Assembly: GCA_023381035.1 (NCBI GenBank)
Contig: JAMCTK010000026.1
Span: 1-6,123 of the forward strand
Direction of reading: 5' to 3'
From: Patescibacteria group bacterium
GTDB lineage: Bacteria > Patescibacteria > Microgenomatia > Levybacterales > UBA12049
DNA length: 6,123 nt
A model generated the notes under the pieces. It had not been told where the DNA came from and made no database searches. It saw only the letters and a list, made by a program, of their open reading frames with translations. Both the position numbers and the translations under genes were made by a program. Positions 1,874 through 5,924 of this stretch are shown here, one piece after another. How positions within the stretch are numbered: position 1 is the first letter of the stretch; every line of letters begins with the position of its first letter.

Positions 1874-2554
1874 CTAATTAGCATTTATTTTTAATCCTTC
1901 GATCATCCCACATATTTTTCTTAAAAAGTCAGTACTTTTACGTACCTTTACTCTCAAAACGCCAAAATAATTTTCAGGATTTTCATAAATTTTCTCCCAT
2001 TTTACCTTCTGATAAAAAGGCTTTTGAAAATGATTTTCCGGTATCATTATTGTTCTAGACCAGTAATTTTGTATATCTTGAATTCGATAATTATGGCTTA
2101 TATTAACTGTAACTCTTACGCTTAAATCCTGAATTTTATAATTAAAGCAATCTCTGAGCCATTTAATAAAAAGCTTAATCATTTCTGGGTTAGAGCTTGC
2201 AAACCCTACTTGACTATCTTTTTTAAAGCCTTCCGCCCAGTAAAGAGAAACGCCTACTAAAAATAACTCCCTTTTTGAAAGCTTACCAATCGCCCTTATT
2301 CCAGCATTTTTCAAAGTTTTAATTTTTATATTTCTTTCTCTTTGTTGTTTAAGGCTGTATTCTAGTCTTTTTCCATAATTTGGGTCACGAGAGTGTTGCT
2401 CCAAGATTTTTATTTGTTTAGGGGTAAGTTTTACATCTCTACACCAAATACTAACCGTACTCGATGATACTTTAAGTGTTTTAGCAATGGATTTAATACT
2501 TTGACCCTCTTTTCTTAATTTTCTTGCCTCTAGTTTCTCTTTAGATTTTGCCAT
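1874..2554 (-). CDS. Helix-turn-helix protein with CPR-type YWAEG C-terminal domain
   Basis: The 226-residue product has an N-terminal helix-turn-helix of the resolvase/homeodomain-like kind at about residues 11-40 (RKLRKEGQSIKSIAKTLKVS, then SSTVSIW). A basic linker follows, then a C-terminal domain from about residue 92. That domain contains LFLVGVSLYWAEGFKK (97-112), SSNPEMIKLFIKWLRDCF (120-137), a YWSR segment (164-167) and VRKSTDFLRKI (204-214). I recall this arrangement as a recurrent, mostly uncharacterised family in CPR genomes. The Y-x-G/A-E-G plus S-N-x-P-x-x-I pattern resembles the LAGLIDADG-like fold seen in some homing endonucleases and in WhiA, but that is inference. It probably binds DNA; regulator and endonuclease-derived roles are both open. 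Its promoter ends nine bases before the ATG. The gene lies immediately upstream of, and divergent from, the intron-containing tRNA gene. Confidence 0.8.
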   Translation of the reverse strand: MAKSKEKLEARKLRKEGQSIKSIAKTLKVSSSTVSIWCRDVKLTPKQIKILEQHSRDPNYGKRLEYSLKQQRERNIKIKTLKNAGIRAIGKLSKRELFLVGVSLYWAEGFKKDSQVGFASSNPEMIKLFIKWLRDCFNYKIQDLSVRVTVNISHNYRIQDIQNYWSRTIMIPENHFQKPFYQKVKWEKIYENPENYFGVLRVKVRKSTDFLRKICGMIEGLKINAN

Positions 2555-2980: not shown

Positions 2981-4648
2981 ATGGAGAGTTTTCCAGAGTT
3001 TGAATTACCTTCAAATATTCTGCACACTAGAGAAGCTTACGACGAAGCCAAACAATTTGCTTTATCTGAAAAACAAGCCCATTCACTTATAAATCTAGTT
3101 ATCGATAATCCTTGGTTAAAAGACGAGGAAAAGGATGAATTCCGAGATTGGAGTAATTATTTTTTCTCTAACAATAAAGAGGAAGGAGAATACGTGATGG
3201 GTAAAGGGAAGTATATCTTAAGGCCAGGAAAAGATGGAATTGTTGACCTTCTGCGTATGCATCCCAATTCAATCAATCCTCAAAATGGGGAAAGTCCTCA
3301 TTTTTCAAGTAAAAGAGAAGCCATTAGAGAAAGTATAGACGAACGAGTAAATGAAGAGCCATTTTTTAAACGTGCTCGAACTGACAGATTTGCAACTCCT
3401 CGCCATCATTCCATAGACGCTGACGGCGCTATAGATAGAGTTATGAAAAATACAAATTTCACCATTATGGGCAAAGAGATTTTCGATAATCCAGAAAAAG
3501 CACCATTAGAATTTCAATACGCCGCGGGCCTCGCTGGTGAAGAAACTTTACTCGCCATTAAAGATCGTTTAGAAAAGGGAGATAAACTTGCCTTTATGCA
3601 GGTTAAAAAGCTCACCCCAGAAACGCATAAAGCACTTCAAACAGTCATTGAAGCAGCAAACGGCTCTGTTTCTGAGGCTATCGCCTACATTCTTAGTGGA
3701 AACAGAGAGCCTCTTTCTTATCTTTCGGCTGAAAGACAAGTTGAGGTTGGAAAAACTGCAGAAATTGCTCGCGAAGGAGCAAGAATGCTTATCCATTTTA
3801 AAATCCTTACTAACAATCCAGGTGACGAGGAAATAGAAAAATTTGAAGAAAAAATAAATAGCATCATAGATGCAAATATTGATGTACCATATGCTTATTG
3901 GAGATATACAGTTGATGGGTTTAAGGAAGACGTTCAGGTAGCAGCCGCTTCCTTAGGGTTTGGCGCAGCCGTTGCAGCTGGGCTTTCAGCCATCGGTTTC
4001 GGATCAGAAGCAAAAACAGCTCAACAAATAATCAAAGAAGGTATAAAAGAGGGAGTGCCAGCTCTCGTGGCCGATGCAACAATGAATTTTGCCACAGGAT
4101 TTGCCGAAAGCCAAAAAGGCAAGAAGAAATCAGAAAGGATAAAGGAAACAGCCGGAATTTTGGCTGATAAATACAAACTTGCTGTAGGCGTCGGAATTCT
4201 TTCCTCAGTTGGTCTCGGCATTTTATCAAAAGAAGTTGAAATGCAAAGTGGAAGCCAGCTTCTTGCCTCAATCCCCCTTGCGCTCACCGCAGTTATACCA
4301 ACAAAAGTAACACAAATGGTTACTGAAAGGTTAAAAAGAGCAAAATCAAGAAATAGTCAGGAAAAAGATACTCATCCTATCCATGATTCGCTTATGGTTG
4401 GAAGTAAAGCTAGTGCCGCAGCAACTTTAGGAATAGGAGCGCTTAATCTTATAGATAACGCATTGGCTGTAACCGGCGCAACCGAATTAGTTGAGCCAGT
4501 GGTTATTGTTGCAAGGGCTGTTAAGATCTTGCAAAACAGTAAGAAAAAATATATCGAAGAAATTTCCCTAAATCCTCAAAAAACCTATACAAGGGCAATG
4601 AAAAACCCAAAAATACCTGAAGTTCAAATGGTAGAAGTTGGGAAGTAA
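2981..4648 (+). CDS. Unrecognised 555-residue protein with hydrophobic Ala/Gly-rich C-terminal half
   Basis: I do not recognise this protein. Residues 1 to about 315 are soluble, charged and probably mostly helical. They include a basic patch with FFKRARTDRFATPRHHS (roughly 125-141) and several Glu/Lys-rich helices. The C-terminal half carries four hydrophobic, Ala/Gly-rich segments: about 318-342 (AAASLGFGAAVAAGLSAIGF), 400-415 (LAVGVGILSSVGLGIL), 427-441 (LLASIPLALTAVIPT) and about 477-515. These are separated by Lys-rich loops. Glycine-rich helices of this sort may insert in the membrane or pack as helical hairpins. There is no signal peptide, enzyme motif, cysteine cluster or nucleotide-binding loop. 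The start is supported by an extended -10 box six bases upstream and the lack of an earlier in-frame ATG. Reading frame and codon use are consistent throughout, so it is a real gene. Membrane-associated protein is the most that can be said. Confidence 0.8.
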   Translation: MESFPEFELPSNILHTREAYDEAKQFALSEKQAHSLINLVIDNPWLKDEEKDEFRDWSNYFFSNNKEEGEYVMGKGKYILRPGKDGIVDLLRMHPNSINPQNGESPHFSSKREAIRESIDERVNEEPFFKRARTDRFATPRHHSIDADGAIDRVMKNTNFTIMGKEIFDNPEKAPLEFQYAAGLAGEETLLAIKDRLEKGDKLAFMQVKKLTPETHKALQTVIEAANGSVSEAIAYILSGNREPLSYLSAERQVEVGKTAEIAREGARMLIHFKILTNNPGDEEIEKFEEKINSIIDANIDVPYAYWRYTVDGFKEDVQVAAASLGFGAAVAAGLSAIGFGSEAKTAQQIIKEGIKEGVPALVADATMNFATGFAESQKGKKKSERIKETAGILADKYKLAVGVGILSSVGLGILSKEVEMQSGSQLLASIPLALTAVIPTKVTQMVTERLKRAKSRNSQEKDTHPIHDSLMVGSKASAAATLGIGALNLIDNALAVTGATELVEPVVIVARAVKILQNSKKKYIEEISLNPQKTYTRAMKNPKIPEVQMVEVGK

Positions 4649-4681: not shown

Positions 4682-5014
4682 TTAAAAGAACAAATTCCAC
4701 CATTTTTTGAAGTTTGGAATCTCAGTTTTTACAATTTCTTCGCTGGTTTTTTTAGGTTCTGCACCTATTACAACCCGCTCTCCTGCTTTAACCATTCCAA
4801 GTTTTTCTCTTGCTTCCTCTTCAACAAAGCTATTTCCTTTAACATAATTAAGCTTTTGCTGCAAAAATTCGTTTTCGCGCTTACTTTCCTCAAGCTGTTT
4901 GTCAAGGTTTGAGGTAATTTTTGCATTCCCCGAAAGTTCAATAATAGAGGATGCAATGTTTTTTATGGCAATTAGTAGAAAAAGAATTATTATAAGAGGG
5001 ATTAGCTTTTTCAT
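4682..5014 (-). CDS. FtsB/DivIC-like septum formation initiator
   Basis: The 110-residue product has the FtsB/DivIC layout. A short cytoplasmic start MKK is followed by one membrane helix at about 4-20, a coiled coil at about 33-58 (NLDKQLEESKRENEFLQQKL), and the family signature FVEEEAREKLGMVKAGERVV at 63-82, close to the usual E-x-x-A-R-E-K-L-G-x-x-x-x-G-E. A 25-residue tail ends in WWNLFF. Such proteins form part of the trimeric FtsQ-FtsL-FtsB (DivIB-FtsL-DivIC) complex, which activates septal peptidoglycan synthesis. The ATG at 5014 is chosen because it puts MKK directly before the membrane helix. An in-frame ATG at 5098 would add 28 residues, overlap the recombinase gene and spoil the N-terminus. 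Residues 21-32 (ASSIIELSGNAK) are encoded by one arm of a 36-bp inverted repeat whose other arm lies in the divergent recombinase gene. FtsB and DivIC cannot be told apart here. Confidence 0.85.
   Translation of the reverse strand: MKKLIPLIIILFLLIAIKNIASSIIELSGNAKITSNLDKQLEESKRENEFLQQKLNYVKGNSFVEEEAREKLGMVKAGERVVIGAEPKKTSEEIVKTEIPNFKKWWNLFF
4919..4954 (-). repeat. Inverted repeat arm 1, inside the FtsB/DivIC-like gene
   Basis: Read on the minus strand, this 36-base segment begins GCATCC and matches 5130-5165 on the plus strand at 33 of 36 positions. The last 25 bases, starting TATTGAACTTTCGGGG, are identical. It is exactly twelve codons (residues 21-32, ASSIIELSGNAK). The core holds an imperfect dyad, TTGCATT and AGTTCAA around CCCCGAA, which resembles the half-site and spacer layout of tyrosine recombinase sites. 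Confidence 0.9.
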
Positions 5015-5017
5015 ATA

Positions 5018-5047
5018 TTGACAAAGCAAGTTTATATTGATATTATA
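5018..5047. promoter_or_regulatory. Divergent promoter region for recombinase and division gene
   Basis: On the plus strand TTGACA (5018-5023) and TATTAT (5041-5046) are 17 bases apart, giving a leader of about seven bases before the recombinase ATG at 5061. On the minus strand TATAAT (5047-5042) covers nearly the same bases and could serve the division gene with a leader of about 20 bases, though its -35 box is poor. The two -10 boxes overlap, so the two directions cannot be occupied at once. The region is centred between the inverted repeat arms. Confidence 0.55.
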
Positions 5048-5060
5048 GGCTTCTAGTATT

Positions 5061-5924
5061 ATGAATAATCCAGTAAAACTTCGCGAAGCACACAACAAGT
5101 TTCACGAGTTTTTAAAATCAAATAAAAGAGCATCTGCTACTATTGAACTTTCGGGGAATGCAAAAGACCAGCTAATTTCCTTTCTTGAGGAATTAAAAAG
5201 AGAGCATATAACAGAGGTGACATCCGTTGATATTCAAGCTTTTCTCACGACACTTCAGGGAAAGGGATACACTGCAAAATCACTTTCAAGAAAGCTTAAT
5301 TCAACCAGAACATTCTATAGATTTCTCAAAGTTAGCGAGTATATCACCGATGACCCATCTCTTATGGTTCAGCACCCAAAATATGAATTAAATCCGCCTC
5401 GCATTCTTACTCCTCTTGAATATAGAGCTCTAAGGGATGCTGCTTCAGTTGACCCAAGAATTTATGCTATTATCGAAGTCTTACTTCAAACCGGTATAAG
5501 AATTGGAGAGCTTTACAATCTTAGAGTGGATGATATTAGAGAAAACTCTTTGTATATCAGACCACAAGAAGGACACGATGCCCGTGAAGTTCCATTAAAT
5601 AGACGTGCTAAAGAAGCCTTAAGAAAATACTTAGAGATTAGACCAAAAACAGATCTTGATTACGTCTTTGTTACCAAAACAGGCAAATCTTTTCTTGTTA
5701 GAAATATCAGAGATTCAGTTGAAAGATACTTCAAAAAAGCAGGCATTGAGAATGCAAAGATTAACGATCTTCGCCATACTTTTGTTGCTCATCACTTAAA
5801 ACATGGCGTTTCAATCGTTGTTTTATCAAAAATACTGGGTCACAAAAGGCTTTCTTCAACCGAACGCTATCTTGAGTACGTAAAGGAAAAAGAAGGTAAC
5901 GGCACCACTCTTGTGGAATTATAA
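5061..5924 (+). CDS. Tyrosine recombinase (XerC/XerD-like integrase family)
   Basis: The 287-residue product has the usual size and two-domain plan. An N-terminal SAM-like DNA-binding domain spans about residues 5-95, and the catalytic domain about 112-278. The catalytic Arg I is R147 in TGIRIGEL. The second motif is NDLRHTF, giving R238. The next His is H261 in LGHKRLSS, and the nucleophile is Y270 in STERYLEY. Two positions differ from XerC/D. The HxxR His is Asn235. The Lys expected in the turn before REVPL (around 173) is Asp in EGHDAREVPLN. Cleavage may still occur, since R, R, H and Y are present. It could resolve chromosome dimers or move an element; its partner site is not shown by homology alone. 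Residues 24-35 (ASATIELSGNAK) are encoded by one arm of an inverted repeat shared with the neighbouring FtsB/DivIC-like gene. A TTGACA-17-TATTAT promoter precedes it, without a Shine-Dalgarno. Confidence 0.93.
   Translation: MNNPVKLREAHNKFHEFLKSNKRASATIELSGNAKDQLISFLEELKREHITEVTSVDIQAFLTTLQGKGYTAKSLSRKLNSTRTFYRFLKVSEYITDDPSLMVQHPKYELNPPRILTPLEYRALRDAASVDPRIYAIIEVLLQTGIRIGELYNLRVDDIRENSLYIRPQEGHDAREVPLNRRAKEALRKYLEIRPKTDLDYVFVTKTGKSFLVRNIRDSVERYFKKAGIENAKINDLRHTFVAHHLKHGVSIVVLSKILGHKRLSSTERYLEYVKEKEGNGTTLVEL
5130..5165 (+). repeat. Inverted repeat arm 2, inside the recombinase gene
   Basis: This arm begins GCATCT and encodes exactly twelve codons, residues 24-35 of the recombinase (ASATIELSGNAK). 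The match to the reverse complement of 4919-4954 is 33 of 36, with all three differences in the first eleven bases and the following 25 bases exact. The 175 bp between the arms contain both start codons and the divergent promoters. Confidence 0.9.

Follow-up and report, generated by a model that had tools for sequence, protein, structure and literature searches.

A short tract of a DivIC/FtsB-like gene, probably copied by template switching, in the divergent Xer-like recombinase gene of a Levybacteria-type bacterium

Inverted repeats near a tyrosine recombinase gene are familiar from the FimB/FimE and Mpi systems, where they flank an invertible promoter. A second and quite different setting is the copying of one arm of a repeat into the other. 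For quasipalindromes of Escherichia coli, the one-step change from an imperfect to a perfect inverted repeat is described, in the sections of the source used here, as an outcome of template switching (PMC7202029). In coding genes of Saccharomyces cerevisiae, the corresponding sections of a second study report homogenisation of inverted-repeat arms, which in one gene altered as many as five adjacent residues (PMC8604942). A literature search combining template switching, multinucleotide mutations, bacterial genomes and inverted repeats returned only work on SARS-CoV-2. The locus described here lies in a stretch of 6,123 nt from a Patescibacteria contig, the whole of which is referred to as the window.

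The locus consists of two divergent genes. A DivIC/FtsB-like septum gene (4682–5014, minus strand, 110 aa) is recognised by PF04977 at 4e-10, and the gene facing away from it (5061–5924, plus strand, 287 aa) encodes an Xer-like tyrosine recombinase with matches to PF00589 (4.2e-29) and PF02899 (2.3e-10). Each coding region contains one arm of an inverted repeat, located by repeat finding and a count of matches. The arms (4919–4954, minus strand, and 5130–5165, plus strand) share 33 of their 36 positions, among them an exact core of 25 nt (4919–4943 against 5141–5165), and both encode A-S-x-x-I-E-L-S-G-N-A-K in the same frame of their respective genes, just as the initial annotation had described. 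The repeat finder lengthens the inverted match to 46 nt at 85% (39/46). A chance origin is rejected: base composition predicts about 1e-7 exact inverted pairs of 25 nt within the window, and none of 200 shuffled sequences had two matches to a 24-nt core at three or fewer mismatches.

The recipient of this sequence is the recombinase. A sister protein, P0002, shares 281 of 287 residues with the window recombinase (P0001); the six that differ, residues 29, 30, 31, 33, 34 and 35, lie without exception in the shared tract. With random placement, the probability that six differences would all fall inside residues 29–35 is about 2e-9. The tract is 21 nt long (5145–5165, codons 29–35) and puts ELSGNAK in place of LAYGKDI, an equal length of recombinase sequence; in this protein-level comparison, all six of the differing residues lie in sequence that matches the reverse complement of the division-gene core exactly. 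Since the sister protein differs nowhere else, the event looks recent. A protein search with the recombinase gave 7498 matches, and among the best 120, which include the window's own protein, LAY-x-KD occupies the ELSGNAK site in 119 of the 119 others. It is also present in 7 of 7 further proteins from a search with residues 11–56. The residues to the left of the tract, ASATI, are common to the sister and nearly all listed homologues.

Genomes of the same order show the same state. The relative set comprised the 82 genomes of the order of a Levyibacteriota MAG, L001, of which 66 gave recombinase matches (E 1e-60 or better), at 67 places in all; 66 places in 65 genomes were examined (G025 gave two, and a contig-end fragment in G021 was left out). 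Also left out of the locus comparison were L001, a duplicate of L002, and L003 and L004, which gave other recombinases. All 66 relative loci carry T-[IV]-[LVI]-A-Y-x-K-D. None of these 66 departs from A30, Y31, K33 and D34, four residues that have all been exchanged for others in the window. Viral contigs searched for the two flanks of the tract, with any 21 nt between them, gave no matches.

The division gene, in turn, appears to be the home of the tract. P0121, the sister of the division protein, is 99% identical to it and also reads IELSGNAK. The search with this protein found no relative besides P0121, whose cluster has a second member, so the evidence for the donor state comes from P0121 and the window. 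The DivIC-like protein of L001 has IVASIISLRQNSQIV at the place that matches the window's IASSIIELSGNAKIT (aligned by eye). Because ELSGNAK is found in P0121 but in no other listed recombinase, the transfer ran from the division gene to the recombinase gene, and the reverse direction is rejected on the same evidence. By these comparisons the division gene is the native setting of the motif, which is alien to the recombinase. Gene conversion had been offered in the initial annotation as a simpler fallback, and a non-reciprocal copy is indeed what the two sister proteins indicate.

The recombinase itself has the Xer-type architecture, an N-terminal SAM-like domain (PF02899) with a catalytic domain (PF00589). 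The NCBIfam XerC, XerA and XerD models give it 146–149 bits, all under their curated cut-offs (XerC 148.5 bits against a cut-off of 335.15, with the sister likewise below at 163.8), while two models of tyrosine-type DNA invertases give 22.7 and 20.2 bits (cut-offs 221 and 222). By these scores the recombinase is Xer-like and not of the FimB/Mpi kind, and its gene belongs to the core genes of Levybacteria-type bacteria. Residues R147, R238, H261 and Y270, which we take to fill the roles of the R..R..H..Y motif, are present in all relatives with letters there (63–64), and the catalytic residues are untouched in the converted protein. Box II (5763–5774) reads N-D-L-R; in tyrosine recombinases it is usually H-x-x-R. 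Asn occupies this site in 63 of the 63 relative loci with letters there, which suggests that an Asn variant of box II is in use in this order. No papers on XerC and the dif site of Patescibacteria were found in a literature search.

In an alignment with E. coli XerD, the tract falls in an N-terminal region whose counterpart is TLNAYRRDLSMMVEWL, in a helix that presumably faces the DNA in this family. Since the tract replaces four residues that are invariant in all 66 relative loci, the recombinase is probably impaired in this helix. Against the XerC model the window protein scores 15 bits lower than its sister. AlphaFold predicts a single helix at residues 26–44 in the sister and a helix broken at 30–33 in the window allele. 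This comparison is weak support, with mean pLDDT values of 75.2 and 76.4, a modest confidence, and a method not made for judging small changes.

The pattern probably reflects one recent event of template switching, in which about 21 nt were copied, in one direction, from the DivIC/FtsB-like gene into the divergent recombinase gene. During synthesis, the growing strand would have paired with a poorly matching inverted sequence some 175–205 nt away (GCATC..CTA.TATT, 12/15). The polymerase would then have copied the opposite arm before resuming its own template in register, with the result that ELSGNAK took the place of LAYGKDI and the inverted repeat, poor until then, became near-perfect. Within the recipient arm, the leftmost 15 nt (5130–5144, plus strand) match the donor at 12 positions and encode residues shared with the sister; this part presumably predates the event and may have been the point of annealing, and an imperfect inverted repeat would have existed beforehand. 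Beyond the right end of the tract the match is slight, which offers little for an in-register return. The in-frame outcome may be due to chance or to survival. That the mechanism was template switching, and that it acted in living cells, is what we infer from these features.

An origin in vitro or during assembly is possible because the allele occurs on one contig, compared with two for the sister that has the ancestral motif. The tract could then stem from a template switch in amplification or library preparation, or from a chimeric path through a low-coverage assembly, and the loss of four residues invariant in a conserved gene would fit such an artefact. MDA, according to the sections of the source used here, yields mainly inverted chimeras, with more than 70% of junctions primed at 2–21 nt of complementarity (PMC1855051). 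However, a simple inverted chimera has one junction, and here the recombinase sequence resumes about 21 nt later with register and frame both kept. With an exact core of 25 nt, an assembly with longer k-mers would, moreover, need a read that spans both junctions. Nor do the other 20 inverted pairs listed for the window resemble it, at 16–31 nt and just 70–88% complementarity. An artefact is judged unlikely, though it deserves serious consideration.

RecA-type gene conversion, or recombination between the arms, would lead to the identical end product as polymerase template switching: sequence of the DivIC-like gene would pass into the recombinase gene, with nothing passing back. The homology probably available before the event was, however, very short, 12 of 15 positions on one side and little on the other. 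Very short homology is poor for strand invasion, and this route is considered very improbable.

The initial annotation had also raised an invertible promoter switch, and several features of the locus do invite this reading. The inverted, same-frame arms adjoin a tyrosine recombinase gene and enclose, as had been stated, 175 nt (4955–5129) with both start codons, the ATG of the DivIC-like gene at 5014 and that of the recombinase at 5061. Read mechanically from the sequence, inversion between the arms would exchange the two N-termini in frame. The accompanying claim that both promoters lie in this spacer is half shown: a strong promoter-like match, TTGACA-17-TATTAT (11/12, 5018–5046, plus strand), is oriented toward the recombinase, but the sole minus-strand match is weak (9/12). 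Promoter-like matches numbered four, against a shuffle mean of 1.2.

Comparison with the relatives points away from a switch. A divergent DivIC-like gene is found upstream of the recombinase in 63 of the 66 loci, the other three being cut by contig ends, and this pairing (4682–5924 in the window) may hint that division and chromosome resolution are regulated together. For the repeat, 300 nt upstream of each recombinase were compared with its first 200 nt, leaving out L018, L040 and L053, three contig-end loci whose upstream DNA is too short. All 63 relatives with both genes lack the repeat; their longest exact inverted match is 7–12 nt, against 25 nt in the window, and the 25-nt core meets their sequences with 8–11 mismatches, no better than a shuffled core (7–12). 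Recombinase matches in the relatives begin at query residue 1–6, and their DivIC-like genes keep their own hydrophobic start (by eye), so the orientation seen in the window is the ancestral one, shared by 63 of 63. An old inversion, also mentioned in the initial annotation, is accordingly unsupported for an event that looks recent. No fused or inverted protein form is among the matches listed in the searches with the recombinase, the division protein or residues 11–56. In a fusion of the division-gene start to the recombinase body, about 250 residues would be those of the window protein, which should place it near the top of the list, where the recombinase matches after P0002 are 82–83% identical (as 90% clusters, the members inside the clusters being outside view).

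Against this background, it is highly doubtful that the newly made repeat now inverts at some rate in the population and exchanges N-termini, as a nascent switch born of a copying error. Hardly credible, and rejected here, is a programmed or selected switch in which the recombinase inverts the 175-nt promoter segment and fuses both proteins: the repeat and its core are unconserved in relatives of ancestral orientation, no fused form is listed, the recombinase is Xer-like, and it has itself lost invariant residues to the tract.

At lower coordinates, the window contains further features. A 555-aa protein (2981–4648), encoded between a tRNA and the division gene, has alanine- and glycine-rich hydrophobic stretches (by eye) and gave no match in Pfam or NCBIfam; L001 lacks a counterpart of its gene between L25 and the division gene. 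Rfam detects a group I intron (RF00028, 70.6 bits, match at 2667–2860) in the region 2647–2908, apparently splitting a tRNA(CAU) in its anticodon loop. ARAGORN reports no tRNA in the window, and its own intron mode also misses the one at 2647–2908, but once the putative intron (2677–2870) is removed it reads a tRNA-Met(cat) of 68 nt with a 3-bp D stem. Adjoining the intron is an ORF of 226 aa (1874–2554, minus strand) with an N-terminal helix-turn-helix and weak matches to HTH_23 and HTH_7. It also has weak matches, far under cut-off, to IS630 and IS21 transposases, and its GVSLYWAEGFK resembles LAGLIDADG endonucleases (by eye). This ORF is a candidate for an intron-associated homing endonuclease.

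If the allele is real in cells, it represents a clean natural example, from an uncultured Levybacteria-type lineage, in which one step rewrote six residues of a conserved protein with the text of a neighbouring gene. One-step changes of this kind can mimic strong selection in ordinary substitution tests. The locus would also illustrate that what resembles a switch, an inverted repeat read in frame next to a recombinase gene, can in fact be a scar. With the FimB/FimE and Mpi types it shares inverted repeats around a promoter near a tyrosine recombinase gene; unlike them, it has an unconserved repeat that lies inside both coding regions, a single orientation as far as seen, and an Xer-like recombinase. 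Also comparable are the thyA hotspot and lacZ reporters of E. coli, interpreted by the Ripley model, in which a repeat is likewise perfected by copying of the other arm (PMC7202029). In the sections used here, those reporters involve an 18-bp quasipalindrome and a 4-bp frameshift, whereas the arms in the window lie in two genes, 175 nt apart, and the outcome is a replacement of 21 nt. The S. cerevisiae cases of Abraham and Hazkani-Covo (2021) resemble the window in that a multinucleotide change affecting several residues of a coding gene is explained by the other arm (PMC8604942). As far as the sections used here describe them, their arms measure 7–16 bp, with spacers searched up to 70 bp; the window has a 25-nt core, a longer spacer, six changed residues and a donor in the neighbouring gene, in one uncultured bacterium. 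Set beside these systems, the tract is an unusually large and clear case of a known mechanism.
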